Positions 1 to 40,569 of a stretch of DNA of 64,000 bases are shown in pieces (the first letter of the stretch is position 1; each line of letters opens with the position of its first letter). Position numbers and translations under genes: made by a program. The notes beneath the pieces are model-generated. The model did not search any database. It was not told where the DNA came from and was given only the letters and a program-made list of their open reading frames with translations. The stretch comes from a virus. The stretch spans positions 31,566 through 95,565 of the IMG/VR virus record IMGVR_UViG_3300030419_006954; one strand, 5' to 3'.

Positions 1-1
1 C

Positions 2-7070: not shown

Positions 7071-7089
7071 TATTTATAATATATTTATA
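7071..7089 (-). promoter_or_regulatory. Two tandem TATAAATA octamers before the sigma gene
   Basis: On the minus strand TATAAATA occurs at 7082-7089 and again at 7071-7078, an 11-base step. Both point at the sigma gene and would give leaders of about 20 and 9 bases with T4-type late geometry. They could form a self-activated promoter for the phage sigma factor, or be simple AT-rich sequence. Confidence 0.35.
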
Positions 7090-7096
7090 AAACGTT

Positions 7097-7139
7097 TTAC
7101 GTTAAAGACTAACGTTACCTTTTACCATTACGTTAAAGA
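7097..7139. repeat. Direct repeat TTACGTTAAAGA, two copies 31 bases apart
   Basis: TTACGTTAAAGA is at 7097-7108 and again at 7128-7139. The 31-base step is close to three helical turns, as expected for cooperative protein binding sites. AACGTT hexamers at 7091 and 7111 lie in the same stretch. The site is between the consensus promoter and the sigma gene. Confidence 0.5.
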
Positions 7140-7140
7140 A

Positions 7141-7157
7141 CTAAGAAGCGTTCTTAG
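7141..7157. promoter_or_regulatory. Perfect 7-bp inverted repeat, 3-base centre
   Basis: CTAAGAA-GCG-TTCTTAG. On the minus strand the hairpin is followed by a loosely T-rich stretch, so a weak attenuator is possible. Overlapping it, GTTCT-T-AGAAC at 7150-7160 is another perfect dyad, which favours a repressor operator. Confidence 0.45.
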
Positions 7158-7158
7158 A

Positions 7159-7171
7159 ACCGTTTCACGGT
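7159..7171. promoter_or_regulatory. Dyad ACCGT-TTC-ACGGT at the predicted transcription start
   Basis: Perfect 5-bp arms with a 3-base centre, beginning one base downstream of the minus-strand -10 box at 7173-7178. A protein bound here would cover the start site, so it is a good operator candidate. The same layout (a -10 box touching a dyad with a 3-base centre) occurs at 10330-10351. Confidence 0.5.
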
Positions 7172-7172
7172 A

Positions 7173-7200
7173 ATTATATCGTGGACTCTTATTCTGTCAA
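7173..7200 (-). promoter_or_regulatory. Consensus sigma-70-type promoter for the sigma/ssb/hsp20 operon
   Basis: Read on the minus strand: TTGACA (7195-7200), a 16-base spacer, then TATAAT (7173-7178). Both hexamers match consensus perfectly. Transcription would begin near 7166 and give a leader of about 110 bases carrying the dyads and direct repeats before the sigma gene. A perfect host-type promoter suggests early expression by host polymerase, held by a repressor. Confidence 0.7.
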
Positions 7201-7270
7201 CTAAAATTTTTCGGAAATTTCTTAATTGAGAGTGGACACTATTGCCCCCTAAGTGTAAATTCCTTTGACC

Positions 7271-8242: not shown

Positions 8243-9888
8243 TGAAGAGATATAAGTGGCTTAACAAAGATTCCCGCGATTTCTTAAAACGGGGGTATTT
8301 GAGAGAAGGAGAATCAGCAGAACAGCGAGGTCATGACATTGCTGTCGCCGCAGAAAAACTTCTAAAAATAAAAGGCTTTTCTGATAAGTTCGAAGAATAC
8401 CTAAGAAGAGGTTTTTATTCTCTATCTAGTCCTGTGTGGGCCAACTTTGGCAGAGATAGGGGCCTTCCTATTTCTTGTAATGGAGTCTTCATAGAAGACC
8501 GTATGGACGCGATTCTTGACAAGCAAGCTGAAGTAGGAATGCAAACAAAGCATGGCTCTGGCACTTCTGGATATTTTGGTGAGTTACGAGGAAGAGGTGC
8601 TGAAATTTCAGCGGGAGGGACTTCAAGCGGCCCAGTCCACTTTATGGAATTATTTGACAAAGTTTCTTCTGTTGTTTCTCAAAGCAATGTAAGAAGAGGC
8701 TCCTTTGCCGCTTACCTACCTGTAGATCATCCTGATATTAATGAATTTTTAAGAATACGCAGCGAGGGTAACCCAATACAAGAAATGTCCTTTGCTGTGT
8801 GTATCACAGACAAATGGATGCGATCTATGATAGAAGGAGATAGGAAGAAGAGATCTGTGTGGGCTTCTATTATAAAAAAAAGATTTGAAACTGGTTATCC
8901 CTATATATTTTTTACGGATAACGCCAATCAACAAGCTCCCAAGCCTTACAAGGATAAAAAGCTGCAAATCCACGCCTCCAATCTGTGTAGCGAAATATTC
9001 TTACATTCCTCAGAAGAAGAATCCTTTGTCTGTTGTTTATCTTCTCTAAACTTACTTGAATGGGACGAGATAGAAAAAACCGATGCTATTGAGACTCTCG
9101 TTTATTTTTTGGATGCCGTAATGGAAGAGTATATCCAAAAAACAGAAGATATTCCCTATATGCAAGCCTCTCACAATTTTGCCAAGAGGCAAAGGGCATT
9201 GGGGGTTGGGGTTCTTGGTTGGCACTCTTTCTTGCAATCTAAACTGATACCATTCGAAGGAATGGAGGCTAAGTTTTTAAACAGGCAAATCCACAGAACC
9301 ATAAGAGAGAGAGCAGATAACGCCACAAAAGAACTATCTGGTTTATTGGGAGAGCCGTTACATTTAGAAGGCTATGGCAGACGCAATATGACAACAATAG
9401 CGATTGCCCCTACAACTTCCAGCTCTTTTATATTGGGTCAGGTTTCTCCATCAATTGAACCCCTAAATAGTAACTACTTTACAAAAGATCTAGCTAAAGG
9501 CAAATTTACTTATAAAAACCCTTATTTAGAGAGTCTTTTAGAAGAAAAAAAGAAAAACACCCAAGCAACTTGGAAATCTATTCTTAGCAAAGGTGGATCA
9601 GTCCAACACTTAGACTTTTTATCTGAAGAAGAAAAATCTGTATTTAAAACATTTGGAGAAACATCTCAAAAAGAGATTGTTATTCAAGCTTCTCAGCGCC
9701 AAAAGTTTATAGACCAAGGCCAAAGCTTGAACCTGATGATTTCTCCGAAATGCCCTCCCAAGCAAGTAAGCGAACTTCTTATCTTTGGGTGGGAGCAGGG
9801 GATCAAGAGCTTCTATTACCAACGTAGCGCCAATCCTAGCCAAGAACTTGCTCGCTCTATTTTAAATTGTTCCTCTTGTGAAGGATAA
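8242..9888 (+). CDS. nrdA: Ribonucleotide reductase class I, large subunit (short form)
   Basis: The 548-residue catalytic subunit. Landmarks: C79 in 'SCNG' and C264 in 'VCCLSSLNL' (the redox pair), the thiyl cysteine C249 in 'SNLCSE' with N247 and E251, tyrosines Y525-Y526 in 'FYYQRSAN' (radical transfer), and a C-terminal C543-x2-C546 tail that takes electrons from thioredoxin or glutaredoxin. It is about 200 residues shorter than E. coli NrdA and has no N-terminal ATP-cone, so it probably lacks dATP feedback inhibition. The ATG at 8242 overlaps the nrdB stop; the TTG at 8239 is less likely. Confidence 0.93.
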   Translation: MKRYKWLNKDSRDFLKRGYLREGESAEQRGHDIAVAAEKLLKIKGFSDKFEEYLRRGFYSLSSPVWANFGRDRGLPISCNGVFIEDRMDAILDKQAEVGMQTKHGSGTSGYFGELRGRGAEISAGGTSSGPVHFMELFDKVSSVVSQSNVRRGSFAAYLPVDHPDINEFLRIRSEGNPIQEMSFAVCITDKWMRSMIEGDRKKRSVWASIIKKRFETGYPYIFFTDNANQQAPKPYKDKKLQIHASNLCSEIFLHSSEEESFVCCLSSLNLLEWDEIEKTDAIETLVYFLDAVMEEYIQKTEDIPYMQASHNFAKRQRALGVGVLGWHSFLQSKLIPFEGMEAKFLNRQIHRTIRERADNATKELSGLLGEPLHLEGYGRRNMTTIAIAPTTSSSFILGQVSPSIEPLNSNYFTKDLAKGKFTYKNPYLESLLEEKKKNTQATWKSILSKGGSVQHLDFLSEEEKSVFKTFGETSQKEIVIQASQRQKFIDQGQSLNLMISPKCPPKQVSELLIFGWEQGIKSFYYQRSANPSQELARSILNCSSCEG

Positions 9889-9904
9889 GTGTAAATTAAA
9901 CAGG

Positions 9905-10321
9905 ATGAAGTCTAGCTTTTCAGATAAAATTTATACTTGCCTTGCGGCTAAGGTAATTAAATTTAATGAAGAAAATACGCCTCGCGTTACCTTAGACCAA
10001 TTAATTAGGGTATATAAGAGAGGGGAAAAAACATCAAGAGTTTTCTTTTCTTTCGACAAAAGCCCCGCTCAGTGGGCCATGGCCCGAGTAAACATGTTTT
10101 TAAGGCTCAGTGCAGATCGTCGTGTCGCAGACGCTTATCGCTTTCAAGACTTAGATATATCTGAAGGAACAGACCGCACCTATCACCAAGAAGAAGCAGA
10201 ACCCTTTTGGAAATTTTCTGAATTAGACTTCACTATGGCTCGTTCTGATTTGTTATTGTTTCACATCACTGATCAGGAGGCGGAAAGCACATTTTACCCG
10301 CCCCCCGTTGAAGAAATTTAA
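9905..10321 (+). CDS. Unknown protein downstream of nrdA
   Basis: About 138 residues from the ATG at 9905; a GTG at 9878 inside the nrdA end would add nine. No family is recognised. It is a soluble, mixed-charge protein with no membrane segment or cysteine motif. The sequence includes 'FSFDKSPAQWAMARVNMFLRL' in the middle and an acidic, Pro-ending C-terminus (PPPVEEI). Position after nrdBA suggests the same transcript, ending just before a new promoter at 10308. Confidence 0.6.
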   Translation: MKSSFSDKIYTCLAAKVIKFNEENTPRVTLDQLIRVYKRGEKTSRVFFSFDKSPAQWAMARVNMFLRLSADRRVADAYRFQDLDISEGTDRTYHQEEAEPFWKFSELDFTMARSDLLLFHITDQEAESTFYPPPVEEI

Positions 10322-10335
10322 ATTCAGCCTATAAT
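10308..10335 (+). promoter_or_regulatory. Promoter for the glycan island
   Basis: TTGAAG (10308-10313), a 16-base spacer, then TATAAT (10330-10335, perfect). It sits at the end of the preceding gene and 17 bases before the first glycosyltransferase start. The start site would be near 10342, inside the dyad at 10335-10351. Confidence 0.6.
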
Positions 10336-10351
10336 CATACCAGTGGTATGA
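10335..10351. promoter_or_regulatory. Perfect dyad overlapping the island promoter
   Basis: TCATACC-AGT-GGTATGA: 7-bp arms with a 3-base centre, beginning on the last base of the -10 box and ending two bases before the first ATG. It could be a repressor operator or, as RNA, a hairpin hiding the start codon. Confidence 0.5.
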
Positions 10352-10352
10352 A

Positions 10353-11225
10353 ATGAAGGTTTTATTTGTATCTGACTTCACCTTAGAGCGCAACCAAGTT
10401 GGTGGCGCACAACTAAGCAACTCCTTTATAATAGAAAAGGGCAAAGAGCTTGGTCATGAGATTGTGGAACACGATTATACGTCGTCCATAGTAGATTTTT
10501 TAGCTACATATGACCTTTTGATTAGCTCTAATGTAGAGGCTATAAACGAAAAATCTCCAGAAAAGCTGGATTTTATTTTTAAGCATCCCAACCACATTAG
10601 GTTAGAACACGATTCATGTTCTTATTTGAGCAATAAGACTAGACAAAAACTATTTGAATCTTCAAAACAAAACTTTTTTCTTTCTCAGTTTCACATTTCT
10701 TTTTTTAAAAGGCTTTATGGTGATTTTTTTAAAAACGTAGAAATTGTTTATGATCCCATAAATACCGATATTTTTAAGCCCAAAAATGTGGAAAAATTAT
10801 ATGATGTAGTTTACTGTGGGTATTTACACCCCCTAAAAGGGCTTAACAGCCTCGTTTCATTCGCGCAGGATAATCCAAACAGAGAAATTAACGTTTTTGG
10901 ATGGGGTGATTTTAACTGTGATGAGTTTTTTAGCAATTATTCTAATTTAAACTTCGGGGGCATTAAAAAATATCAAGAAATAGCGACGATCCTCCAGCAA
11001 ACCAAGGCTGTTTATCACAATCCCACCGTTAACGAGCCGTTTTGCAGGATGGTAGCAGAAGCTCTTTTGTGTGGGGTCGAAGAATTCATAGGCGACACAG
11101 ACAAAATTGGGTCTTACTTAGAATTTCAAGCTGTAGGGCGAGAAAAATTTGAAGAGGGCTGCAATAATGCGGCTGACAATTTTTGGGAAAAAGTAAATGA
11201 AAGGTCTTTATCATGTGTGATTTAA
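10353..11225 (+). CDS. Glycosyltransferase, GT-B fold (GT4-like)
   Basis: The 290-residue first gene of the glycan island. It opens 'MKVLFVSDFTLERNQVGGAQLS', where the GG is the usual N-terminal nucleotide-sugar GT-B loop. The second domain begins 'YDVVYCGYLHPLKGL' and has the E-P-F-C-R-M-V-A-E-A-L pattern (residues ~228-238) that matches the EPFGRxxxEA donor-binding motif of GT4 enzymes. It overlaps the next gene by 13 bases. The sugar and acceptor cannot be read from the sequence. Confidence 0.7.
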   Translation: MKVLFVSDFTLERNQVGGAQLSNSFIIEKGKELGHEIVEHDYTSSIVDFLATYDLLISSNVEAINEKSPEKLDFIFKHPNHIRLEHDSCSYLSNKTRQKLFESSKQNFFLSQFHISFFKRLYGDFFKNVEIVYDPINTDIFKPKNVEKLYDVVYCGYLHPLKGLNSLVSFAQDNPNREINVFGWGDFNCDEFFSNYSNLNFGGIKKYQEIATILQQTKAVYHNPTVNEPFCRMVAEALLCGVEEFIGDTDKIGSYLEFQAVGREKFEEGCNNAADNFWEKVNERSLSCVI

Positions 11226-12055
11226 TTTGCGGAACATATTTCAAACATCAGTGTCGGACGAGAATAAGTAACTATATAGACGAAAGAACACCTGTCTTTG
11301 AGTTCACAGAAGCAGAAGAAGGGCATGAAAATTACGTTTATTGCAAACCAGAATTTATGCAACTTTTAAAAGATTCTAAACTATTAAAAGACGGGCCGTT
11401 TACGTTAATTACTCACAACTCAGATATTAATTTTGATGAGGAGTATGTAGAAGCCGTATTAGAATTTTTTCCTGAGATAGAGCATTGGTATACTCAAAAC
11501 TTGCTTTATAAACATCCGAAGGTTTCTCCCATCCCCATTGGTATAGCAAACCCAAGGTGGTCTCATGGCAATCAAGAGCGCTTCAAAAAAATAATTGAAG
11601 AAAACAACAAAAAAGATAGAGCATACTATGCTAACTTTAATGTCTCTACAAACCCTTTAGAAAGGACTGAGTGTTACAAGCAGCTAGGTATAGAGTCGCC
11701 TACCGATTATCCAAACGCAACCTCTATAGAGGAACACAACAAGTTTGTTAATAAAACCCAAGAAAAATATTTAAGAAATATAGCAAAGTCTTTTTTTACG
11801 GTTTCACCTGATGGTAATGGCAAAGACTGTCACAAAACCTGGGAAGCTTTATATATGAAAAGTATCCCTATTGTTAAGAGGTGGCATGGTGCAGAAAGGT
11901 TTAAAGAGCTAGGAATACCCATGTTAATTGTAGATAACTGGTCTGAGTTTAAAGATTTAGATCTTTGTGAGGATTTATATCTCAGCCTGTGGGGTGAATT
12001 CAAGCCCTCTTTCCTTAACTTCGATCTATTTAAGAAAGGTGAAAAATCTTCATAA
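11213..12055 (+). CDS. Exostosin-like glycosyltransferase
   Basis: A 280-residue product. The C-terminal third reads 'FFTVSPDGNGKDCHKTWEALYMKSIPIV', matching the exostosin/GT47-type layout (S-P-x-G-x-G-x-D-x-x-x-x-W-E-A-L-x-x-x-x-I-P-I-V) seen in many phage and bacterial polysaccharide enzymes. The N-terminal part has no separate recognisable domain. It overlaps both neighbours, so it is translated as part of the island operon. Donor and acceptor are unknown. Confidence 0.6.
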   Translation: MCDLICGTYFKHQCRTRISNYIDERTPVFEFTEAEEGHENYVYCKPEFMQLLKDSKLLKDGPFTLITHNSDINFDEEYVEAVLEFFPEIEHWYTQNLLYKHPKVSPIPIGIANPRWSHGNQERFKKIIEENNKKDRAYYANFNVSTNPLERTECYKQLGIESPTDYPNATSIEEHNKFVNKTQEKYLRNIAKSFFTVSPDGNGKDCHKTWEALYMKSIPIVKRWHGAERFKELGIPMLIVDNWSEFKDLDLCEDLYLSLWGEFKPSFLNFDLFKKGEKSS

Positions 12056-12725
12056 AGTTTACATAATTCACTATACAAAATTGACATCCCGAAAAGCTCA
12101 CATGCTAAATGAGCTTCAGCGGTGGTTTCCCAATATTGAATATGAATTTGTAGAGGAGTTAGATCAAGAAGATTTAACAGATGATATTATACAGGAAAAC
12201 TTTGATTTGCTATCTTTTAAAAATAGGTTTGGCAGAGATATGCTTAGATCTGAAATGTCTTTATGTATGAAATATAAAAAAGCCATTAATGATATTTCTA
12301 AATTACCAGAAGGAGAAGATTTTTTTATTTTAGAAGATGATGTTATATTTAAAGAAGACCCTTTAAACTATATAGAGGCCATGAACCGATTGTGCGACGA
12401 ACATAAACTAAAATATGATTGTGTATTTTTGGGCGAAGCTTGGATAAGGCGTGATGATAACAGAGATATTTTTGGGAAGAAAGATCATCCAGCGACGAAT
12501 GGATTATGCACTGTTTTATATACCAAAGAATCTGTAAAAAAACTAAACAAGTATTTGCAGTCTACCAAAATAACACAACCCCTAGACTGGCAATTCAATG
12601 ATGCTTTCGAGCAGTTGGATTTTGATGTGTATTGGGGCAAAGCTTTAACTAGGCACGGTAGCGTATTGGCTTTAGACGGAGAAGATTTCAAAAATTTTAA
12701 ATCTACCCTGAGAGACACATATTAA
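12039..12725 (+). CDS. Glycosyltransferase family 25-like (LPS-type)
   Basis: About 228 residues from the GTG at 12039 (the frame opens earlier at a TTG at 11967, but homology-like sequence begins 'VKNLHKVYIIHYTKLTSRK'). GT25 features: the N-terminal 'IIHYTKL..RK' strand, 'RSEMSLCMKYKKAI' in place of the usual E-x-G-C-x-x-S-H-x-x-x, and 'FFILEDDVIF' with the DD metal-binding pair. Such enzymes add galactose or similar sugars to LPS-type glycans. Overlaps the previous gene by 17 bases. Confidence 0.7.
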   Translation: MKNLHKVYIIHYTKLTSRKAHMLNELQRWFPNIEYEFVEELDQEDLTDDIIQENFDLLSFKNRFGRDMLRSEMSLCMKYKKAINDISKLPEGEDFFILEDDVIFKEDPLNYIEAMNRLCDEHKLKYDCVFLGEAWIRRDDNRDIFGKKDHPATNGLCTVLYTKESVKKLNKYLQSTKITQPLDWQFNDAFEQLDFDVYWGKALTRHGSVLALDGEDFKNFKSTLRDTY

Positions 12726-12726
12726 A

Positions 12727-13671
12727 ATGCCCGAAAAAATTAAATTAAAGTTTTCATCTCCTTGGGATTCTGCTAAAACCAATAATGCGAGGGTAGAATA
12801 TAATTGGGGAACTCTTCCTGAGTGTTTCGAATTAACCAGTGGAAGCGACTATGATTTTTTGATTGTTTTAAATCATAGCCGAGAAATGTATTGTTCTCCT
12901 AGAGAAAAAAACATAGCCGTGACCATGGAACCTACATGGAGCATTAATTCTCTAAAAAATTTAAATGATTATTGCCAACACATAATAACTAGCGATAAGA
13001 AAATAAAAGGAGAAAACATTAATTATACATACTCTTTTCTTTTTACCCACGACTCCAGAAACAATAGTGATACAAACAATTTATACGGTCCCACCGTTGA
13101 TGACTATTTAAACAATAATTCTTTTCCTGACGACATAGACTCAGCCGATTACCCCAAAAAAATATCTTACATGGTAGCTAGCCATGGAGCGTTAAACGGC
13201 ACTCCCCACCACTCATCATCTAACTACATCTTAAGAGAAAACTTACTTCTGGAAATTCTAAACTCTGATTTAGACATTGATATTTATGGAAGGGGTTGGA
13301 ATATAAACGATTCTCGCTATAAGGGCGCACCTCCTTTAAAAAAAGAGGCTTTAAAGGACTATAAGTATTCCATTTGTATCGAAAACAGTTGCGAAGATTT
13401 TTATATTTCTGAAAAGTTTTTCGATGCCGTTTTAAACAACTGCATACCAATATATTACGGATGCAAAAGCATAGATGAAGCATATAATCCAGATTCTTTT
13501 ATTATATTTGATCCTACATCAAAAAATGTAATAGATAATTTAAAAAATATTATCAATGAACCAATCTCTTGGCGACTAGAAGCTGTGAAGAAGGCTAAGA
13601 ATGAATATTACAACAGACATAATTTACTGAAATATTTAGAAAACTTTATAAAAAATGAAATATCTAATTAA
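12727..13671 (+). CDS. Fucosyltransferase-like protein (GT10 family)
   Basis: The 314-residue product carries the alpha-1,3-fucosyltransferase signature at about residues 215-248: 'YKYSICIENS', then 'YISEKFFDAVLNNCIPIYYG', matching F-x-x-x-x-E-N-S...Y-x-T-E-K-...-P-V-x-x-G, which binds GDP-fucose. The same island encodes GDP-mannose 4,6-dehydratase and GDP-fucose synthase (26096 and 25189), so the donor can be made by the phage. It overlaps the following gene by 17 bases. It has no membrane anchor. Confidence 0.78.
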   Translation: MPEKIKLKFSSPWDSAKTNNARVEYNWGTLPECFELTSGSDYDFLIVLNHSREMYCSPREKNIAVTMEPTWSINSLKNLNDYCQHIITSDKKIKGENINYTYSFLFTHDSRNNSDTNNLYGPTVDDYLNNNSFPDDIDSADYPKKISYMVASHGALNGTPHHSSSNYILRENLLLEILNSDLDIDIYGRGWNINDSRYKGAPPLKKEALKDYKYSICIENSCEDFYISEKFFDAVLNNCIPIYYGCKSIDEAYNPDSFIIFDPTSKNVIDNLKNIINEPISWRLEAVKKAKNEYYNRHNLLKYLENFIKNEISN

Positions 13672-14362
13672 TTACGCGGACCTTGGGTTTAAGGAGGCTC
13701 AGAAAATAAATTCTACCTCTGGTATAGTATGTGGATTTGATTCTGTCATACAATATAGCAAGCCTAATATAGACAAAAAATTTTTAGAAGAAAACTTTAA
13801 AATTTTAGACCAAAAACGTGGGGCTGGCTATTGGCTGTGGAAACCATATTTTATTTTAAAAACCTTGCGAAACACTAATGAGGGGGATATTATATTTTAT
13901 TCAGATAGTGGGGCGCAGTTTATAAAACACATGAATCCTATTTTTGAAAAGATAGAAAAATCTGATAGAGGAGTTCTTATTTTTAGACTTCCAGGCCATC
14001 ACAAAGAAAACGAATACTGTAGAAAGCAGGTAGCAGAAGAAGTGGTGAATTGTGACAAAGAAATAATGGAAAGCGATCAACATATGGCGAGCTTTGTAGG
14101 GCTCCGTAATTGTGTAGACTCAATTGCCATAATTTGTAAATGGCTAAACCTTTGCACAAAAGAACATCTTATTACAGATATGCCTCCCCAAGAGGATGAG
14201 TTTCCCATGTTCAAAGACCACCGTCACGATCAGAGCCTTTTAAGCCTTTTAAGTAAAAAACTAAACTTAGAGACGGCTCCTGATCCATCTCAATGGGGCC
14301 TTGTTCACAAGCAAACAACCGAAGAAGATCATTTTATTTATCACCACCGAAACAGGCAGTAA
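13655..14362 (+). CDS. Glycosyltransferase-like protein ('GYWLWKP' type)
   Basis: The 235-residue product has the conserved phrase 'RGAGYWLWKPYFI' followed by 'IIFYSDSG', which looks like the nucleotide-sugar/metal site (DxD-like) of a small GT-A family found in polysaccharide clusters. Near the C-terminus 'FKDHRHDQSLLSLLSKK' fits the W/R-H-D-Q-S-x-x-S part of the same family. No close assignment to a numbered GT family can be made by eye. It overlaps the GT10 gene and belongs to the same transcript. Confidence 0.55.
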   Translation: MKYLINYADLGFKEAQKINSTSGIVCGFDSVIQYSKPNIDKKFLEENFKILDQKRGAGYWLWKPYFILKTLRNTNEGDIIFYSDSGAQFIKHMNPIFEKIEKSDRGVLIFRLPGHHKENEYCRKQVAEEVVNCDKEIMESDQHMASFVGLRNCVDSIAIICKWLNLCTKEHLITDMPPQEDEFPMFKDHRHDQSLLSLLSKKLNLETAPDPSQWGLVHKQTTEEDHFIYHHRNRQ

Positions 14363-14374
14363 AAAAAATCTACA

Positions 14375-15094
14375 ATGAGTAACTTACCCACCAATATAGG
14401 CAAAGATATACTTTTTTATTCTCATTTAGGTTTAGGCGACAATATAAGCTGCAACGGGATTGCCCACTACTTGGCCGAAAGATACAAAAAAAATATTTTT
14501 GTTGCATCAAAAGAGAAAAATTACAAAAGCTTATCTTTTCTTTACAAAGACTTCCCTAATATAAGCATTATCCCTGTTACAAACGATCCACATGAGGAGC
14601 AAAGGGAAATTATAAAAATTGCAGAGAAGCACAATCTTTATTTAATAAGAACCTTTATTCGCTCCATGAAAGATCCTTGGGATGTGGATTTTTATAACAT
14701 ATTAGATATAGACTATAATATTAAATTTGATTATTGTCGTTTACCATCCATTAGCAATAAGAAAGAAATAATTTCTAAAGTTCTTAAGAAAAACAAAATA
14801 AAAGAAGGAGAAGATTTTGCTTTTGTTCACCAAGATAAATCCCGTGGGTTTACATTTGAATATAAAACGGATTTACCAGTGGTTTTCAACGAATTAGACT
14901 TGAATGTATTTGAAATGTCTTGTATTTTAACCAGAGCCGCCGAACTTCATATGATGGGTAGCAGTTTAATTTGTATTGCTGAATTATTAAAACTGCCGAC
15001 CAATAAACAAAAAGCTTTTTTTTACAATATTAGATCAAACGATGGCGAAACTATAAACATTAACAATAAGAAAAACTGGAAATATTATGTCTGA
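14375..15094 (+). CDS. GT9-like (heptosyltransferase-fold) protein
   Basis: A 239-residue product. It starts with 'LFYSHLGLGDNISCNGIAHYLAERY', a GT-B N-domain with the glycine-rich GLGD loop. It ends with 'TRAAELHMMGSSLICIAELL', the donor-binding helix region typical of ADP-heptose-type transferases. The total length is only about two thirds of a usual GT9 enzyme, so it may be a reduced form. It overlaps the next start by eight bases. Confidence 0.5.
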   Translation: MSNLPTNIGKDILFYSHLGLGDNISCNGIAHYLAERYKKNIFVASKEKNYKSLSFLYKDFPNISIIPVTNDPHEEQREIIKIAEKHNLYLIRTFIRSMKDPWDVDFYNILDIDYNIKFDYCRLPSISNKKEIISKVLKKNKIKEGEDFAFVHQDKSRGFTFEYKTDLPVVFNELDLNVFEMSCILTRAAELHMMGSSLICIAELLKLPTNKQKAFFYNIRSNDGETININNKKNWKYYV

Positions 15095-15395
15095 TACATT
15101 AGGAGGATTAATTGATAAATTGATTACCATCGACATGAAAATGTGGGATAATCAGGAATTTTTATATGAAGTTAGAAGGTTAAGCTTTGATGAGTTCAAA
15201 GAGAAGTTCACACAAACAGAAGAACAAAAAAAATCCTTATTTGAGTCTGTAAAAAAGTGTTGTGACTTAAACGTGCAAAGAAGTCAACTTATAGATGAGG
15301 TGGATGAAAAAATTGTAGAAATAGTTCGAACTTCTTCTGAGGGTGAAAATTTAGACTCAGGCAAATTTATCCAAAGAAAACATAAAACATACTAA
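15087..15395 (+). CDS. Small unknown protein (possibly DUF4254-like) in glycan operon
   Basis: A 102-residue helical, charged protein starting 'MSDTLGGLIDKLITIDMKMW'. The 'LIDKLxIxxxKxW' phrase resembles small proteins often found beside glycosyltransferase genes (DUF4254 type), but the match is only by eye. It has no catalytic motif. Overlap with the upstream gene and a three-base gap to the next show it belongs to the island transcript. Confidence 0.5.
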   Translation: MSDTLGGLIDKLITIDMKMWDNQEFLYEVRRLSFDEFKEKFTQTEEQKKSLFESVKKCCDLNVQRSQLIDEVDEKIVEIVRTSSEGENLDSGKFIQRKHKTY

Positions 15396-15398
15396 AAA

Positions 15399-16250
15399 GT
15401 GAAACATTGCCATTTTTCAATTTTGTATAATGAGTTACCCTTTTTAAAACAAAAGCTACCTTTCTTATACAAACATTTCGGCCAGCTTATATTTTTTGAT
15501 TTAAATGTGGGGACCGAAAATCCTCATTTTTCTTTGGATGGATCTCATGAATTTATAAGAGACTATCCAGACCCAGACAAAAAAATTACACTAATAAACC
15601 AAAAAGACATAAATAACGTAGGGGTTTTTACTGGTGCTGGTTCTATTGAAAAACAAAAGATGTTTGCTGTTGGTTCTCAATATGTGGAAGATGACGTTGA
15701 TGTTTTTTGGTGTAGCGATTTAGACGAATTTTTTAATGAATCTTTTATATATAAAGTCGAAAAAGTTTTGGAAATTCCTGATGTCAACACTGTAGACCTA
15801 GAACATTATCTTTTTTGGAAAGACTTTAATCATATCTTGTGTTATCCACACTCAAATACTCGCAAAATGTATGCGCGAGTTTGCCGCCACAAAAGAGGCA
15901 ATCTTTACGGCCACTGTTCTTTACAAAACCAATTTCCAAAAACTGCTTTTATAGATGATGAAAAATATTATCATTTTGCGTGGCTAGGGGACTCAAGGGT
16001 TTTAAGCAAATTCAATCATTATTCTACTCCCCCGACAGGAAGCACTTCTAATAAAAGAATGTATGAAAAATATTGGGAAAATATATGGCAACCATTTAAC
16101 TCCAAAAGACTCTTTAAAGATGGGAAAGATCTACAGGGATATCCTCACATGCACCCCAACTCCGCAATAGAAATGGGTATTAGAAAATTTGTAGGCTCTC
16201 TTCCCTCTTATGTTAATTATGAGGAGCTAGAAAAAGATTTGAACACCTAA
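15399..16250 (+). CDS. Glycosyltransferase, GT-A-like
   Basis: The 283-residue product (GTG start) begins with 'HFSILYNELPFLKQKLPFLYKHF', a pattern of GT2/GT17-like proteins where the first strand leads to a helix with N-E. It has 'VFWCSDLDEFF' near residue 107, a DxD-type metal site. The C-terminal part is rich in His, Tyr and Trp. Function in the island is inferred to be sugar transfer; donor unknown. Confidence 0.55.
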   Translation: MKHCHFSILYNELPFLKQKLPFLYKHFGQLIFFDLNVGTENPHFSLDGSHEFIRDYPDPDKKITLINQKDINNVGVFTGAGSIEKQKMFAVGSQYVEDDVDVFWCSDLDEFFNESFIYKVEKVLEIPDVNTVDLEHYLFWKDFNHILCYPHSNTRKMYARVCRHKRGNLYGHCSLQNQFPKTAFIDDEKYYHFAWLGDSRVLSKFNHYSTPPTGSTSNKRMYEKYWENIWQPFNSKRLFKDGKDLQGYPHMHPNSAIEMGIRKFVGSLPSYVNYEELEKDLNT

Positions 16251-16259
16251 TGTAACCGT

Positions 16260-16667
16260 ATGAAGTTTTTGCCTCTCGATACCTCCGATAAAAGTAAACA
16301 TCTTTTGCAACATTTTTTAGATAGTGCAGGAACATCTCTTGTTGGCTTTAGATATTACAATACCAGAGATTTTGATGTAATAAAAAATCATATTTTTTCA
16401 TTTCTTTTGTATGATGGAGAAAAATGTGTAGGTTACGGCCACTTAGACAGAGAAAAAGAAAAGGTATGGCTAGGTATTTGTGTCCGAGAAACTTGCACAG
16501 GATTAGGTTATGGCGACATAATTATGAAAAAATTAATTTCACTACACAGCGGAACCATTTTGCTAACCGTTGATTCCACAAACGAGGTAGCTATTAATCT
16601 ATATAAAAAGTATAATTTTGAAATAAACTCCGAAAGAAGAAATATTTATTTAATGAAAAGAAAATGA
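16260..16667 (+). CDS. GNAT-family N-acetyltransferase
   Basis: A 135-residue product. The core motif A reads 'VWLGICVRETCTGLGYGDIIMKKLI', matching the V-x-x-x-x-R/Q-x-x-G-x-G/A acetyl-CoA loop. The C-terminal 'AINLYKKYNFEI' is the standard GNAT motif B (A-x-x-L-Y-x-K-x-G-F). Overlap (ATGATA) with the DegT aminotransferase start suggests they act in sequence: the aminotransferase would make an amino sugar and this enzyme acetylate it. Substrate is inferred. Confidence 0.75.
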   Translation: MKFLPLDTSDKSKHLLQHFLDSAGTSLVGFRYYNTRDFDVIKNHIFSFLLYDGEKCVGYGHLDREKEKVWLGICVRETCTGLGYGDIIMKKLISLHSGTILLTVDSTNEVAINLYKKYNFEINSERRNIYLMKRK

Positions 16668-17758
16668 TACCTCTTTACCAGCCGTTTTTACCCCGAAAAA
16701 GCATAATATATGCAAACGAAGCCATCCGATCTAATTGGATTTCCTCGCTTGGCAAATATTCTTCGTTGGCGGCAGAAAAACTAGCAGAAATTCATGGTGT
16801 AAAGTTTTGCATTCTTACGAATAATGGCACAGCCGCTACACATTTGGTTGCTAAAAGTCTCAAGAAAAAATACCCCACCATTAAGAAAATATACGTTCCA
16901 TCTGCGTGTTATGTGGCAGCATACAATAGTTTACTTTATGACAAAATCGGGTGGGAAGTAGAAGCTGTAGATTTGTCTGAAGAAACCTGGAACTCAGATT
17001 TTAGCTGTATAAAACCAGAAAAAAATTCTGCATTAATGGTCGTCCATAACTTAGGAAACATTGTGGATGTTTTAAAACTAAAAGAAAAATTTAACATTCC
17101 TATTATAGAAGATAATTGTGAAGGTTTTTTTGGTGAATATGGGGGATATCCATCAGGCTCCAAGTCTCTAGCATCTTCTCTTTCTTTCTTTGGTAATAAA
17201 AATATAACTACTGGAGAAGGAGGGGCTTTTCTCACAAATGACGAGTCTATTTATAATTATTCTAACAAAATAAAAGGCCAAGGCCAAACATCAACCCGTT
17301 ACATCCACGATGAACTTGGCTATAATTACAGAATGACAAACGTTCAAGCCGCCATATTGCTCGGCCAACTTGAAGAGATAGACACTATAAAAGAAAAGAA
17401 GAAAAAAGTTTTTAATTATTTTAGGGAAAGATTAAGTCAGATTGAAGGCGTCACAAACCAAGCTATAGAAGCTAACACTAGCCATTCTATGTGGATGATA
17501 GGAGCGCGATTTAACCCAGAAAGATTTAATGTTTCTAAGCTAGAACAAGAATTGGGAGCCAATGGCATAGAGACCAGAAAAATGTTTTATCCTTATACTG
17601 CTCACAAACATTTAAAATTTAAAGGTGCCACCGACATAAGCTCTTTGATCAATTCTCAGGTTTTAATGTTGCCTTCTTATCCAGAACTGAAAAAATTAGA
17701 AATCGACAAAATTTCTTCGACAATAGAGAAGCATTCAAAAACTAAAAACACGAATTAG
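16664..17758 (+). CDS. DegT/DnrJ/EryC1-type sugar aminotransferase
   Basis: A 364-residue PLP enzyme. K179 in 'SFFGNKNITTGEGG' is the Schiff-base lysine, 'NNGTAATH' at ~53-60 binds the cofactor phosphate and 'IIEDNCEGF' supplies the D/E that contacts PLP. Family members turn 4-keto or 3-keto nucleotide sugars into amino sugars, as in GDP-perosamine synthase (PerA). Gmd in this island makes GDP-4-keto-6-deoxymannose, the PerA substrate, so an N-acetylated 4-amino-4,6-dideoxy sugar is a plausible product together with the GNAT gene just upstream. Confidence 0.82.
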   Translation: MIPLYQPFLPRKSIIYANEAIRSNWISSLGKYSSLAAEKLAEIHGVKFCILTNNGTAATHLVAKSLKKKYPTIKKIYVPSACYVAAYNSLLYDKIGWEVEAVDLSEETWNSDFSCIKPEKNSALMVVHNLGNIVDVLKLKEKFNIPIIEDNCEGFFGEYGGYPSGSKSLASSLSFFGNKNITTGEGGAFLTNDESIYNYSNKIKGQGQTSTRYIHDELGYNYRMTNVQAAILLGQLEEIDTIKEKKKKVFNYFRERLSQIEGVTNQAIEANTSHSMWMIGARFNPERFNVSKLEQELGANGIETRKMFYPYTAHKHLKFKGATDISSLINSQVLMLPSYPELKKLEIDKISSTIEKHSKTKNTN

Positions 17759-17763
17759 ACGTT

Positions 17764-18324
17764 ATGAAAACTCCAGCATTTTGGCCTGAAAAGGGCCACT
17801 TAAATTTAAATCAATACTATTATATCAAAACATTGGTAGAAGGTAAAAACATCGAATATGCTTTAGAAACAGGATTCCACACGGGTAGATCAGCCTTGTC
17901 TATTTTGAATAATTGCAAAAATTTAAAAAGGATGATTAGTATTGACAACAATTTTGTTCATGAAAGAAAAAAGCTTCTTGAAGAAAAATTTCCTCACTTT
18001 AAGGGGGTTGAATCCGATTCAAAATTAGCTTTAACGGAGGAGTTTTTTGAAACCAATTACCCCGAAGGAATAGACTATTGTTTGGTGGACGGCGATCACT
18101 CTTATTATGGATGCCTGAGTGATTTAAAATTAGTTTTGCCGCATATGAAAAACGGAGGTCTTATTGTCATAGACGACTATGAATCGGGGCCACCAGACGG
18201 ATGTCCTATACCAGAGGTTACAGCCGCATGTGATCATTTTTATGGAGAGAACGCCGACAAACTATCAAGAGAAAAATGGCACAAATCGGGCAAAGGATTT
18301 TGTGTATTCACAATTAAGGAATGA
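17764..18324 (+). CDS. Class I SAM-dependent methyltransferase (Methyltransf_24-like)
   Basis: The 186-residue product has motif I 'ALETGFHTGRSAL', 'MISIDNN' as the acidic end of strand beta-2, and 'IDYCLVDGDHSYYGCLSDL', which is the D-G-x-H-x-Y-x-x-x-x-x-D-L phrase typical of Methyltransf_24. It ends at a four-base overlap with the next gene. It probably methylates a sugar hydroxyl in the island glycan, but the acceptor cannot be read. Confidence 0.72.
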   Translation: MKTPAFWPEKGHLNLNQYYYIKTLVEGKNIEYALETGFHTGRSALSILNNCKNLKRMISIDNNFVHERKKLLEEKFPHFKGVESDSKLALTEEFFETNYPEGIDYCLVDGDHSYYGCLSDLKLVLPHMKNGGLIVIDDYESGPPDGCPIPEVTAACDHFYGENADKLSREKWHKSGKGFCVFTIKE

Positions 18325-19034
18325 AAAAACAAAAAGTTTTAATCATAGGGAACAAGCAATACTCTAATTTTAAATTAGACAATATTGTGGACACCTTTGA
18401 TGTAATTTACAGATTTAATCTTGCTTGGCCTAATAAAAACAACGGCACAAAATTCGGTAAGCTGGCAATGTGCGGTCACATATATCAGAATTTTATAGGG
18501 CAACCCGCCGCCAAAGAGCAAATAATGAAGAAATACGGCGAGTATGATCCTGTATATTTAAGCAATTGGTATGACTATTTTCAAGCGAATAAAGAAAACT
18601 TTGAGGAAATTTTTCATCAAAATGAAAACAATTGGGCACAATGGAACAAGATGCTTGGAACATATGGCAGTCCGCATAGATTTTCTAGAATGGCGACGAC
18701 GGGATATTCGACTATTTTCAGAAACTTATCGAATCCAGACAACAAAATTTATGTTTCTTGCTTTACCCTATGTAGCGACGAAACAAGAAAAACAGTAGGA
18801 ATGACGGATAAAATTGCGAAAAAGGAGAATGAAGGCGGCGGGTGTCATTCGTTTTCAGATGAAATAAAAATACTAAATTGGCTCCACAACAATAAAAAAA
18901 TTGACGCCTCTCTGTGTATGATTAATGACATTGAAAAGCTTGACTTTAAAATCAACAAAGACAGCATCGGTCCCTCTAAAGAAATAGTAGAGTTAATTAA
19001 AAAAACCCATAATCAAGATGGCGACACAAGGTAA
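18321..19034 (+). CDS. Possible sialyltransferase-like (GT29/GT42-like) protein
   Basis: The 237-residue product starts 'KVLIIGNKQYSNFKLDNIVDTFDVIYRFNLAWP', which resembles the L-sialylmotif opening of sialyltransferases (V-x-x-G-N-x...I-D-x-x-D-x-V-x-R-x-N). A later 'RMATTGYSTIFRNL' resembles the second motif (P-x-T-G-x-x-x). The match is by eye and partial. No CMP-sialic-acid synthesis genes are in the window, so another donor is possible. Overlaps the cupin gene by 17 bases. Confidence 0.45.
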   Translation: MKKQKVLIIGNKQYSNFKLDNIVDTFDVIYRFNLAWPNKNNGTKFGKLAMCGHIYQNFIGQPAAKEQIMKKYGEYDPVYLSNWYDYFQANKENFEEIFHQNENNWAQWNKMLGTYGSPHRFSRMATTGYSTIFRNLSNPDNKIYVSCFTLCSDETRKTVGMTDKIAKKENEGGGCHSFSDEIKILNWLHNNKKIDASLCMINDIEKLDFKINKDSIGPSKEIVELIKKTHNQDGDTR

Positions 19035-19365
19035 AATTTGGGGGAAAACCCAAGACATATTTAAAAACTCTAACTTTGAGCTTCACAGAATAGAAATCAA
19101 AAAAGGAGGTTATTGTTCTACGCATCAGCATGAACACAAATTTAATGCTTTCTATATTGAGAAAGGTAAACTAAAAATAACCATATACGAAACAGATTAT
19201 GATTTAGTAGATGAAACTATTGTGTCTACAGGCGAGCTAACAACAGCCAAACCTGGGGCGTATCATAAGTTTGAGGCTCTAGAAGATACAATTTGTTATG
19301 AACTTTATTGGGTAGAGTTAAACCACAACGATATAAAAAGAAAGGATGTCGGAGGGCGTAAATAA
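19018..19365 (+). CDS. Cupin-fold protein
   Basis: A 115-residue product. It has the first cupin motif 'GGYCSTHQHEHKFNAFYIEKG' (G-x5-H-x-H-x3,4-E-x6-G with His spacing slightly altered) and the second 'AKPGAYHKFEAL' (P-x-x-x-x-H). One small beta-barrel with a likely metal site. In glycan clusters such cupins are isomerases, epimerases or redox enzymes on nucleotide sugars, but no specific role can be assigned. It overlaps both neighbours. Confidence 0.7.
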   Translation: MATQGKIWGKTQDIFKNSNFELHRIEIKKGGYCSTHQHEHKFNAFYIEKGKLKITIYETDYDLVDETIVSTGELTTAKPGAYHKFEALEDTICYELYWVELNHNDIKRKDVGGRK

Positions 19366-20254
19366 AACTATGAAAAAAGGCATGAAGGACAATATAGAGC
19401 GGAAGCAGCCCTCTATAAACGAAGTCGTCATGCATGAAGGGTTTCCCTTGTTTAGCTTTTTAGAGCTGAATATTAATGAAATCTGCAACAGGAAGTGTCC
19501 CTTTTGTCCGCGATCCGATCCTAAAAGCTATCCCAATCAAAACATCCATATGGATATAGAGATAGCTCGAAACATAGCCCAACAACTTGAAAGTCTTAAT
19601 TTTACTGGAATTGTAAATATAAGCGGGACTGGGGAACCTTTACTAACTAGATATATTCCAGACATTGTAAAGGAATTTGGCGACAGAGGAATACATGTAG
19701 AAATAGTTACCAACGGAGATGTTCTCGCAAACAAAAAAAAGGGTCCACCGCTCATAGAAAAACTTTATAGCTCTGGCCTTAAACAGTTTGTGGTTAGTAT
19801 GTATGACGGCCCCGAACAAATTGATTTTTTTAATTCCTTGTTTTCCAGTTGTGGTATAGACAAAAGCCTTTATTCTTTAAGGGACAGGTGGTATGATGAG
19901 TCAGAGGATTATGGGTTATTATATACCAACAGAGCGGGGAATATAGGTTTTGAATTCTTGTCAGAAATAGCTAAAGCAAAACTTATAAAATCAGGAAAAT
20001 CTGCTTGCTTTTATACTCATTATGCTATGATGATTGACTGGAATGGGGACGCATTAATATGTTGTCAAGATATGTATAACAGAACCGTAAATTTTGGCAA
20101 TGTGATGACTAAACCCTTGATTGATATATGGATGGATGGCAAGCTCATGGAATTTAGAAATAAACTTAAAAACGGAGAGAGGTCTTTGTCTCCTTGCAGC
20201 AATTGCAATGCAAACGGTCAGATATTTGGAGCTAATCACGCATCAGCATGGTAG
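19346..20254 (+). CDS. Radical SAM enzyme with SPASM-type C-terminus
   Basis: The 302-residue product (ATG 19346; ATG 19370, after the cupin stop, is an alternative giving 294). C47-x3-C51-x2-C54 in 'EICNRKCPFCPR' binds the radical SAM [4Fe-4S] cluster. 'NISGTGEPLL' is the GGE-like SAM-binding segment. The C-terminal third has 'DALICCQDMYN' and 'CSNCNANG', cysteines expected for an auxiliary SPASM or twitch cluster. Such enzymes oxidise or rearrange peptides or aminosugars. It is directly followed by a PLP aminotransferase, so the pair may dehydrogenate and then aminate one substrate. Confidence 0.82.
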   Translation: MSEGVNKTMKKGMKDNIERKQPSINEVVMHEGFPLFSFLELNINEICNRKCPFCPRSDPKSYPNQNIHMDIEIARNIAQQLESLNFTGIVNISGTGEPLLTRYIPDIVKEFGDRGIHVEIVTNGDVLANKKKGPPLIEKLYSSGLKQFVVSMYDGPEQIDFFNSLFSSCGIDKSLYSLRDRWYDESEDYGLLYTNRAGNIGFEFLSEIAKAKLIKSGKSACFYTHYAMMIDWNGDALICCQDMYNRTVNFGNVMTKPLIDIWMDGKLMEFRNKLKNGERSLSPCSNCNANGQIFGANHASAW

Positions 20255-36750: not shown

Positions 36751-39180
36751 ATGATGGGTCTAACTGATTTCAATTTAACACCAAAAGCAAAAAAAGGATT
36801 AAAAGATGCCAAAAAATTTGCAGAGGCCAATGGGCACACCCTTGTAACTACTGAGCACCTAATTTATGGGTGCTTAGTTAATCTATCAGATAGCTGTTCC
36901 TTAAAACTCAAAGGATATGGGGTTCCTCTTGAACAAAAAGAATTTGTTAAAATCTTTAAGGACTATGCTTCAAAAAACACAAAGATTTTTGAATCTACGC
37001 AGGGTCAAGGGGGCTGGCACGAAGATGTTAATGAAGTAATTCTTTTCGCCAAAGAGTTTTCCGACCAGTTCGACAGTTACTTTATTGGTGTCGAGCATAT
37101 TTTGTATGTGATTTTAGACATGGAGGGGCCGTTTATCGCGCATTTGCGAGAAAACGCTATTGATCCTCTTCACGCGAAAGATGTAATAGAGACTCATGTT
37201 TTAGAAAGCAGCATCCCCCCCACGGACCAAATAAAAAATATTTTACAGATTCAGGGTAAAAGAAATTTATCCTTCCACGAAGAGGAGCAGCGTCCCGTAA
37301 GTCATTTAAGCAAGTATTGTATCAATCTTAATCAACGCTTTATAGATAAACGATCCTCTAAAATTTCAGGCAGAGACGACGAGACTGACGAGCTAATAGA
37401 AATTCTCTCCAAAAAAAATAAAAGTAACGCTATTTTGGTCGGGGAGGCTGGAGTCGGTAAAACTGCGATTGTGGAGGGGTTAGCCCAACGTATAGTTTCT
37501 CAAACGGTGCCTCCCCACATGTCTCTTATGCAAATCTGCGGGGTTGACATCAGCGCCATGGTTGCTGGCACTAAATACAGGGGAGAGTTTGAGGAGAGAT
37601 TTAAGTCCCTTATCTCAGAAGCAGAAAAAGAACCTAATATAATTTTATTTTTTGACGAAATACACACAATCATCGGAGCGGGTAATTCCGAAGGGGCCGT
37701 AGACGCATCTAATATGTTAAAACCCGCTTTAGCAAGGGGTGACATAAAATGCATAGGCGCTACTACCTCCCAAGAGTATAAGAAGTTTTTTGAGAAGGAT
37801 ACTGCCATGAAGAGGAGGTTTGAGAAAATCGTGGTGGAGGAGCCCTCGAAAGCAGATACTAAAAAAATAGTAATGGAGGCTCTCCCTTTTTATGAAGATT
37901 TCCACCACGTTGATTACAAAGAAGAAGATATTGACACCATCCTAGACCTGTCTGAAAAGTTTTTAAGCAATAAAAGGTTTCCCGACAAGGCTTTTGACTT
38001 AGTGGATCAAATTGGAGCGAGGACTAGGATCAAGTATGTTCCCGTTTCTTCTAAAATGGCTTCTGCAAGAAAAAAATTCTGTGATTTCTTAGTCAAGAAC
38101 GGGGAGGACAAAGAATTGAATGAGGAACAATTTACCGTTCTCTTAAAAGATTACTTACAAGAACTGGCGGCGAGTGGGAAACCAAAAGGTCGTAAGCAAA
38201 AAATACGGCAGAAGGATATAGTTGCTGTCTTTACTGAAAAAACAGGGTTGTCACCAAAGACTATCGCTAAAAACAATTCCGCGTTCATTAATTTCCCAAA
38301 ACACATGAACAGTGAGATATTTGGCCAAGAAGAGAACATCGAGACCATTCATAACGCCCTGTCCTGCGCTAAAGCGGGGTTAAATGACCCACAAAAACCG
38401 CTTTCTAACTTTTTGTTCATAGGGGGCACCAGTGTGGGCAAAACTTTTACCGCTAAGAAAATAGCTAAATATTTTTATGGCAATGAAAAGTCCTTTCTAC
38501 AAATTAATATGAGCGAATACCAAGATAAAACTGCTATTTCTAAGCTCATAGGAGCCAACGCAGGTTATGTAGGTTACGAGGATGGAGGGCTTTTAACAGA
38601 GTTTGTTCGCAATAATCCCAATTGTGTGGTGCTATTTGATGAGGTGGAAAAATGCGATCCTAAAATTTTGGATTTGCTACTACATATCTTGGACGAAGGT
38701 TATGCTACAGACAACTTAAATAGAGAAATTGATTTTCGTCGAGCGGTCATTGTGATGACTTCCAATATAGGTCACACTGAAAAGTCTAAACGCAGCATGG
38801 GATTTGTCCCCAACCAAGAACCTGACTCTGAGGTTTACAAAAAGTCCCTAGAAAAACACTTGCGCCCTGAACTATTAGCCCGACTAGACGAAATACTTTT
38901 CTTTAACGAATTAAGTGATACTCACCTCCTTAAAATTATCAACCAAGAACTTAAACATATTACAAGTCGCCTCCTAGATAGAGGAATCGAGTTAAGTTAT
39001 AATTCTAGCGTTAAAAAGCTTATCTTCAATAAAGTCAAAAAGCAAAACAGTCACGCTCGGCAGATTAAAAACCTAGTAAAAAGCACAATCCAAGTGCCTT
39101 TGTCTGATTTTATTGTAAAAAATCGAAAAATAGAAAAAATCTCTCTTAAAGTAGTTGACAAATCACTCGCGTTTGTATAA
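36751..39180 (+). CDS. ClpA/ClpC-type AAA+ unfoldase
   Basis: An 809-residue Hsp100 protein. N-terminal Clp repeats ('[12 protein letters not shown]' and '[12 protein letters not shown]', residues ~31-42 and 111-122), D1 ATPase with Walker A 'GEAGVGKT' (231-238) and Walker B 'LFFDEIHTI' (299-307), D2 with Walker A 'GGTSVGKT' (558-565) and 'VLFDEVEK' (627-634). There is no long coiled-coil M domain as in ClpB. 'SMGFVPNQ' (MGF at 683-685) sits where ClpA/ClpC have the IG(L/F) loop that docks ClpP. The phage may therefore direct host ClpP to chosen proteins, or use the unfoldase alone in assembly. Confidence 0.88.
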
Positions 39181-39181
39181 T
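39155..39181 (+). promoter_or_regulatory. Consensus promoter for the small gene at 39191
   Basis: TTGACA (39155-39160, perfect), a 15-base spacer, TATAAT (39176-39181, perfect), overlapping the end of the clp gene. Transcription would start only about three bases before the ATG at 39191, so the mRNA would be almost leaderless. Confidence 0.7.
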
Positions 39182-39190
39182 ATAGCACAT

Positions 39191-39415
39191 ATGAAACGAG
39201 TAAACACTAGGGTCATGAAAGCGATCCGCAATACTAAAGGTAGGTTTTTCGGCCTCTATACTTCGCAGGGGGAGACCTTAAACGCCCAGCTGTCAGGAGA
39301 AACCGATAACTACGTTAGGGTTTATGACCGCAATGCTCGCGAAGATCGCACATTTGCCAAAACTAGCATTTGTGGAGTGCGTATTGCAGAACAAAATTTC
39401 GGTAAGGTATTTTAA
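39191..39415 (+). CDS. Small unknown protein, insulated single-gene unit
   Basis: The 74-residue basic protein starts at ATG 39191 (a TTG at 39155 lies inside the clp gene and the promoter). It begins 'MKRVNTRVMKAIRNTKGRFF' and then has a short beta pattern ('FGLYTSQGETLNAQLSGETDNYVRVYDR') that could form an SH3-like barrel, which would suit RNA or DNA binding. It is flanked by a perfect promoter and a strong intrinsic terminator, so it is expressed alone and probably at a high level. No family recognised. Confidence 0.75.
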   Translation: MKRVNTRVMKAIRNTKGRFFGLYTSQGETLNAQLSGETDNYVRVYDRNAREDRTFAKTSICGVRIAEQNFGKVF

Positions 39416-39458
39416 TATAAAGACTTGCTAGATCGCAATATATCTTACTGATTCGGGT

Positions 39459-39497
39459 AAAACTGGTCCTCTTGAAAAAGGGGGCCAGTTTTTTATT
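39459..39497 (+). terminator. Strong rho-independent terminator with GAAA tetraloop
   Basis: A 15-bp stem (39459-39473 with 39478-39492) closed by a GAAA loop (39474-39477), with only two G-U pairs, followed by a T-run (TTTTTTATT, partly inside the stem). It is the clearest terminator in the window and ends the unit begun at 39155. Confidence 0.9.
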
Positions 39498-39504
39498 ATA
39501 AGTA

Positions 39505-40569
39505 GTGAAAATTAACTCTCTATTTACCGACAAGGCTTACTCTTTTGCGGAGTCGGGAGACCCAAAAGACGATTGCAAGTTCGCTGTCAAGGCTCTAGAA
39601 AAACTTAAACCAAATTTAAAAGTAGAAAAAATAAATTTGCTAGGTGTGGAAGATCATTTTGATGTTTTTATTCTCCAGACCCCCGAGAGGCACATGTTTA
39701 AATTAAAAATTTCTCTCAGCGACACACAAAAAGTTCTTAAAAAGGAAGCAACTGCGTTAAGAAGTTGTGGTTGCAAGAACACTCCTGCCCTCATCGCTTA
39801 CGACACTGTTAAAGTCGGGGAGGAAGTGACCTGTCTACTTACCGAAGTTTTTAATGCTGAAAGTGTCAGAGACCATGGTCGATCCATCATAATAGAAAAC
39901 CTTGACGATTTATTAGATGCGTATTCCTTAGTTTTTGATAACAAGCGCGTAAAAAACAGCTACAAAAATGTTTTAAGTTCTTCTTTGGAGGAATTTATCC
40001 CCACAAATTGCCTTCCTAAAGACACAATTGGAGCCTTTCAAAGCTACACCAATTATCCCCTTTGCGAAAAATTTCTTCTCACCTTAAAATCAGAAATTTC
40101 GGCAGCTGCCCAAGAACTTTTCCCCATTTTTAATCATAAATGTCACGCCTCCCTTTCTCTAGATTCGTTATTTCACGGGCCACAAGGATTTTATTTTGAT
40201 TCCTTATCTACCTTATGCATGGGCCATCCCTTCGTAGATTTTGTTGATTTAATATTAGAAATGGGAGTGGAAACAAAGAACGAGAGCATCTTGTTGGATA
40301 GGTTTTGTGAGAAAATAGGATTTCCCCGCGAGGACAGTATTTATAATCGCATTTATCACTTACAACTAAGAAAAAAGCTTGGTGAATTAATAATTGCTTA
40401 TATAAAAGAGGTTTACCTGTATGATTCTTTTCGGTATCAGAAAATACTTTTTATTGCTGATACCTTTTCCCACTGCTACGAGAGGTTTTGTTCTATTGAT
40501 ATCTTCGAAGAAAATAGGGATTTTATCATGAAAACCATATGCGAGCCCATTTTTGGTGTAAAAGCATAG
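39505..40569 (+). CDS. Kinase-fold (APH-like) protein with altered catalytic loop
   Basis: A 354-residue product (GTG start). The N-lobe pattern 'DVFILQTPERHMFKLKIS' has the strand with the ATP-site Lys, and 'LLTEVFNAESV' the hinge, as in aminoglycoside phosphotransferase-like kinases. In the C-lobe the expected H-x-D-x-x-x-x-N loop is 'HASLSLDSLF', with Ser where the base Asp should be. 'GFYFDSLSTLCMGHPFVDFVDL' keeps the later metal-binding and structural Asp residues. It is probably a pseudokinase or a much-changed small-molecule kinase. First gene after the terminator. Confidence 0.5.
   Translation: MKINSLFTDKAYSFAESGDPKDDCKFAVKALEKLKPNLKVEKINLLGVEDHFDVFILQTPERHMFKLKISLSDTQKVLKKEATALRSCGCKNTPALIAYDTVKVGEEVTCLLTEVFNAESVRDHGRSIIIENLDDLLDAYSLVFDNKRVKNSYKNVLSSSLEEFIPTNCLPKDTIGAFQSYTNYPLCEKFLLTLKSEISAAAQELFPIFNHKCHASLSLDSLFHGPQGFYFDSLSTLCMGHPFVDFVDLILEMGVETKNESILLDRFCEKIGFPREDSIYNRIYHLQLRKKLGELIIAYIKEVYLYDSFRYQKILFIADTFSHCYERFCSIDIFEENRDFIMKTICEPIFGVKA

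Follow-up and report, generated by a model that had tools for sequence, protein, structure and literature searches.

A small phage gene with a promoter embedded in clp and a predicted terminator merged with the promoter of the next gene: a probable insulated, leaderless unit in an uncultured phage group

Leaderless genes of bacteria have been surveyed by means of a characteristic mark, a TANNNT box some 12 bp ahead of the start codon (PMC3160421), and phage transcripts have been described as "often leaderless" (PMC5312081). At the protein level, the WYL domains of PafBC bind single-stranded DNA (PMC11804915) whereas RspWYL1 binds single-stranded RNA (PMC6547453). The locus analysed here shares features with each of these systems. 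It is contained in bases 31566-95565 of a virus record of 95,565 bases, and this stretch of 64,000 nucleotides is referred to as the window. A gene for a small protein carries a TANNNT box at about the surveyed distance, with the first T 13 nt before the start codon (12 nt in most genes at the left end of the record) and with no Shine-Dalgarno sequence. It differs from the surveyed genes in that its promoter is nested in the coding sequence of the upstream gene, and in that the terminator downstream contains a further promoter of this kind. As in the leaderless phage transcripts a 5' UTR is not expected, but here the arrangement is kept across a whole group of uncultured phages and is merged with terminators.

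We estimate at roughly 65% the probability that the small gene is an insulated, leaderless and autonomous unit with a probable nucleic-acid-binding product. According to this model, a sigma-70-type promoter (TTGACA-17-TAATAT) embedded in the last codons and the stop codon of the upstream clp gene would initiate transcription at or beside the A of the ATG, yielding a leaderless mRNA for which a Shine-Dalgarno sequence is not needed. The transcript would end at a terminator with a GAAA loop which at the same time serves as promoter of the next gene, likewise leaderless. RNA born upstream would carry both arms of the hairpin and stop; RNA from the inner promoter would start past the hairpin (within the loop itself in some relatives), so that the hairpin could not form. 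The outcome would be insulation without spacer DNA, and the product would be a small, basic Sm/WYL-like SH3 barrel that binds single-stranded nucleic acid. Neighbouring genes could in this way be transcribed independently in very little space, with the same bases serving in the stop codon and -10 box as well as in the terminator loop and -35 box. The features are listed in Table 1.

Table 1. Features of the clp-small gene region (window coordinates)
Feature	Position	Strand	Remarks
Clp-type double AAA+ ATPase gene, 809 aa	36751..39180	+	phrog_4871, 692 bits; AAA_2/ClpB_D2-small
-35 box TTGACA of the small gene	39155..39160	+	spans clp codons ..V-D-K; kept in 56/67 distinct relatives
-10 box TAATAT of the small gene	39178..39183	+	17-nt spacer; first three bases are the clp stop TAA
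Predicted transcription start	39190..39191	+	at the ATG or one base before; placed ~7 nt downstream of the -10 box
Small gene, 74-aa basic protein	39191..39415	+	ATG start; predicted Sm/WYL-like SH3 barrel with N-terminal helix
Predicted intrinsic terminator	39459..39492	+	15-bp stem, GAAA loop (39474-39477), then T's; hairpin kept in relatives
-35 box TTGAAA of the next gene	39472..39477	+	within terminator loop and loop-closing pairs
-10 box TATTAT of the next gene	39494..39499	+	end of T-run, 5 nt before GTG
Downstream gene, 354-aa protein	39505..40569	+	GTG start; predicted leaderless

Setting and conservation of the small gene

The small gene forms the end of a replication module, in which it is preceded by genes for a DnaB-like helicase, a DnaG-like primase, a PD-(D/E)XK nuclease, a PHP protein, an exonuclease, DnaE and the Clp-type ATPase. 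The gene that follows it is of unknown function. An HNH homing-endonuclease-like gene (window 28600-29004) lies immediately 5' of the helicase gene, and the phage also encodes an Hsp20-like small heat shock protein (window 4656-4979, - strand). Among annotated phage records DnaE and Clp have distant relatives only (<60% identity), and a tblastn search of 50,697 phage records with the small protein gave no match at E <= 1, which indicates a phage group without a close cultured member. The record represents an uncultured tailed phage, and the small protein a family without a cultured member. Searches of the window for tRNAs and for Rfam families yielded none.

Four matches to the small protein were obtained in a genome collection, all of them in metagenome-assembled bins of unrelated taxa. 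A search of 388 genomes of the phylum of G001 returned only the bin already known, and Hfq was not found in 59 genomes of that phylum. Since relatives were binned alike with Verrucomicrobiales (one bin), Flavobacteriaceae and Lokiarchaeota, the bins are poor evidence of the host. PSCyt2/PSD1 and DUF1501 genes are typical of Planctomycetes and Verrucomicrobia. Such genes occur at the end of a phage contig of a close relative (L004, 7667-9858), where they may be a hint to the host or auxiliary genes.

The initial annotation described a 74-residue basic protein, and the ATG-started reading frame does encode one, with a pI of 10.2. We discarded an 86-aa frame from TTG 39155, since its extension overlies the promoter and lacks conservation. 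A scan recovered 39 relatives; with a profile the number rose to at least 99. The protein is 47-97% identical to its relatives across many phages, with GRFFG, G27, NA, DRN, R53 and K57 invariant, and all of the 78 unique members are basic (pI 9.7-11.9). Relative to close relatives dN is 0.01-0.2 and dS ranges from 0.5 to saturation (L044: dN 0.08, dS 1.7); the low dN at high dS argues that the frame encodes a real protein and is under purifying selection.

In nearly all divergent relatives the small gene is found 3' of clp, in L039 with two small reading frames between them. In L009, L010, L057, L059 and L060 it has been relocated behind an outer-membrane-like gene, where the terminator is kept and the clp-linked promoter is not. 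The protein tree, built from few columns, did not separate the order of promoter gain and loss. Frame, promoter and terminator, whose absence from related phages was to have counted against the initial annotation, are all kept in relatives. Being kept beside clp across divergent phages, the small gene resembles a core gene more than one that changes fast in conflict with the host.

Predicted fold and likely role of the protein

An SH3-like fold had been suspected, and structure prediction returned a small SH3 barrel with high confidence. The AlphaFold model, derived from 26 sequences, has a pLDDT of 92.7 and consists of a helix (residues 3-13) followed by five to six strands. In a Foldseek comparison with solved structures, in which no match fell below E = 0.001, the WYL domain of BrxR ranked first (E 0.003) and Hfq/LSm proteins were also matched. 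Among viral models one match reached 3e-5, and the next was named "WYL domain containing protein". Sequence comparisons assigned no family: Pfam and PHROG searches with 26 members gave scattered weak matches only, a profile search of the PDB nothing significant, and in the Pfam scans of these members the Hfq family PF17209 was not matched. No member reached the cut-off of the WYL family PF13280, and the hhalign comparison of profiles gave a probability of 27%. The family is new by sequence, and its predicted fold is a known one.

The model shares with the WYL domains (PF13280) of BrxR (7qfz), PafBC, DriD and RspWYL1 a short helix and a five-stranded Sm/SH3-type barrel, as predicted from the AlphaFold model and its Foldseek comparison. 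Strands beta3 to beta5 can be aligned in register, YV.VYDRN....R.FAKTSI.GV with WYL.A.......R.F.L.RI; the W-Y-L signature itself is absent from strand beta3, which reads YVRVYD instead. Unlike the WYL proteins, the phage protein stands alone with its 74 residues and has no DNA-binding domain. With Hfq/LSm it shares the N-terminal helix and five strands, a similar size and the basic charge, and the TM-score is up to 0.79 (target), whereas identity in the structural alignments is 7-21%.

Given the WYL-like fold, the basic charge and the place beside replication genes, we favour binding of single-stranded nucleic acid, serving replication or phage mRNA, over the other roles. It is proposed tentatively, at somewhat less than even odds. 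The nucleic-acid-binding function suggested initially agrees with a basic SH3-like protein; the strength of expression is inferred.

The main rival role is that of a Clp adaptor or regulator, a small protein overproduced from its own promoter that steers the ATPase to chosen substrates. That divergent relatives, L039 included, nearly always have the gene behind clp, and that promoter and clp end are physically interlocked would suit such a function, but phages of the L009/L010/L057 group keep the two genes apart, the first 50 fold matches contain Sm/WYL-like barrels instead of ClpS or SspB, and the protein is strongly basic. An adaptor is therefore considered unlikely. Still less can be said for the early host-takeover or anti-defence factor of the initial annotation, for example a sponge for WYL ligands or a mimic of WYL regulators, a role that found no support. 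A stand-alone promoter and terminator and a fold similar to the WYL domain found in regulators of defence systems (PMC9122601) would be in line with it, yet the gene lies outside the cluster of small, early-type genes at the left end, which have another type of promoter. It is located beside replication genes, no defence-related neighbour was seen, and an identity of 47-97% is unlike that of typical fast-evolving anti-host genes.

The promoter within clp and predicted leaderless starts

The initial annotation saw a perfect TTGACA/TATAAT promoter, of which the TTGACA stands. The TATAAT at 39176-39181 was rejected as -10 box since it is only 15 nt away from TTGACA and is not conserved. The -10 box conserved in relatives, TAATAT, ends 7 nt 5' of the ATG and makes the promoter a good one (10/12), not a perfect one, with the -35 and -10 hexamers and the spacer (within 16-18 nt) of the sigma-70 type. 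Recognition by sigma-70 is assumed.

Promoter-like sites number 48 in the window against 40 +/- 7 expected. A consensus match alone is therefore at chance level, and only conservation can decide on the signals. Among 67 distinct upstream regions, 56 contain a promoter (score >=9/12, ending 4-10 nt before the ATG), compared with 1.7 +/- 1.3 and a maximum of 5 in 200 rounds of shuffling, and in 55 of these 56 it ends 5-10 nt 5' of the ATG. L086 was counted among the negatives because an upstream ATG was taken as start; it has TTGACA-17-TAATAT 8 nt before ATGAGTACACG.

The relation of the promoter to clp differs among the relatives. The clp stop codon, TAA or TAG, makes up the 5' half of the -10 box in 34 relatives; another 12 have TGA as clp stop, and there it falls within the -35 box, which is read in another frame. 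For the Asp residue encoded by TTGACA, GAC is used in 36 of 36 relatives (the 34, plus two closely similar ones whose clp frame continues across the -10 box), whereas the same clp reading frames elsewhere use 222 GAC and 408 GAT (35% GAC). The occurrence of one word in two reading frames and the invariant GAC indicate that it is conserved as DNA and not as protein; the relatives counted are kin and not independent, but the change of frame is still beyond protein constraint. To this extent the words, their spacing and their dual coding are apparent from sequence and conservation. The weakest explanation, that the promoter-like words are due to chance or coding constraint and that the small gene is the last cistron of a DnaE-clp operon, might draw on the chance-level number of such sites in the window and on the MNKTN group, where the gene is right behind clp without a promoter, but it is improbable in view of 56 of 67 against 1.7 expected and of one DNA word in two frames with invariant GAC.

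The promoter is absent from the MNKTN group (L029, L106, L113, L115), in which the small gene directly follows clp, from the L009/L057 group, in which it is behind another gene, and from L039; with three groups lacking it, it is not indispensable. In L010, where the small gene has moved away, the end of clp contains no promoter.

Transcription normally starts about 7 nt after the -10 box. With the -10 box ending 5-10 nt before the ATG, there is virtually no space for a 5' UTR, and a leaderless mRNA is predicted for the small gene. Such starts appear habitual in this phage. Words resembling a Shine-Dalgarno sequence occur near at most 17 of 111 starts, as compared to 6-14 of 111 further upstream, which is near background, and the same geometry recurs at the left end of the record (L041 1-6700, - strand). 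There, at least 13 small genes have their own promoter, CTTG(C)...TATACT/TATAAT, 6-8 nt before the ATG; 12 of 13 are exactly 6 nt away (0.14 in shuffles). This promoter type, TTGCGG ... TATACT, is unlike that of the small gene. The locus may serve as a natural test case of whether phages of an uncultured host translate leaderless mRNAs.

In most intergenic regions of the left end, a GC-rich stretch is flanked by paired inverted repeats of the type CGTAACTCGTTGATACTCAACGAGTTACG, amounting to about nine copies of a 101-nt repeat.

The predicted terminator and the promoter of the next gene

The 15-bp terminator with a GAAA loop was recognised correctly in the initial annotation. Its hairpin, which contains GC pairs, has a predicted stability of -22.2 kcal/mol (z = -6.4 relative to shuffles, 0 of 200 of which were as stable) and is followed by T's; the T-run, TTTTTTATTAT, lies partly inside the stem. 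The window as a whole is not enriched in terminator-like sites (17 versus 16.7 +/- 4.3 in shuffles), and the only count above shuffles is that of 1..20000, with 27 versus 15 +/- 4. Promoter and terminator alike are convincing through their conservation in related sequences. No terminator is found in the L015/L017-type group.

The next gene would be transcribed from TTGAAA, which is separated by 16 nt from TATTAT, 5 nt before the GTG. Hairpin and promoter share sequence in 32 of the 37 relatives that have both elements, and a distance of 4-7 nt separates the -10 box from the start. The hairpin loop of L072, L085 and L123 even contains the start codon of the next gene, along with its -10 box, as can be seen by eye in L014 and probably in L109, so that the 3' arm and the U-run encode the first residues of the protein.

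From these arrangements a conserved merged terminator-promoter can be proposed, in which one and the same GAAA-loop hairpin closes a transcript, provides the -35 box for the next leaderless gene and stops only RNA coming from upstream; we give this proposal an even chance. If it is true, RNA born in the loop would be blind to its own terminator, which would permit back-to-back insulated genes with almost no intergenic DNA. A literature search, thin on subscription journals, revealed no description of a merged terminator-promoter. In this layout known parts are combined in a new way; it is unusual, very compact and strongly conserved. Promoters embedded in terminators could be searched for systematically, and we suggest that they might be reused as compact insulators.

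The initial statement that almost no other gene in the window has its own signals is partly right, but the next gene is an exception through its promoter in the terminator, and a further case is a 12/12 promoter at 7200-7173 on the - strand. In this region (window 7200-7154, - strand), TTGACA-16-TATAAT is found 4 nt before GTG AAA CGG TTC TAA, possibly a leaderless leader peptide of four codons 5' of a sigma-factor-like gene. The latter (6448..7056, - strand) has weak PHROG matches, the best with E 7e-5. Near several start codons the words TATAAATA or GTGTAAATA occur (window 4979 and 7056 on the - strand, L041 7457 and 8295, and record 26002), which, alongside the sigma-like gene, resemble late promoters of the T4 type.
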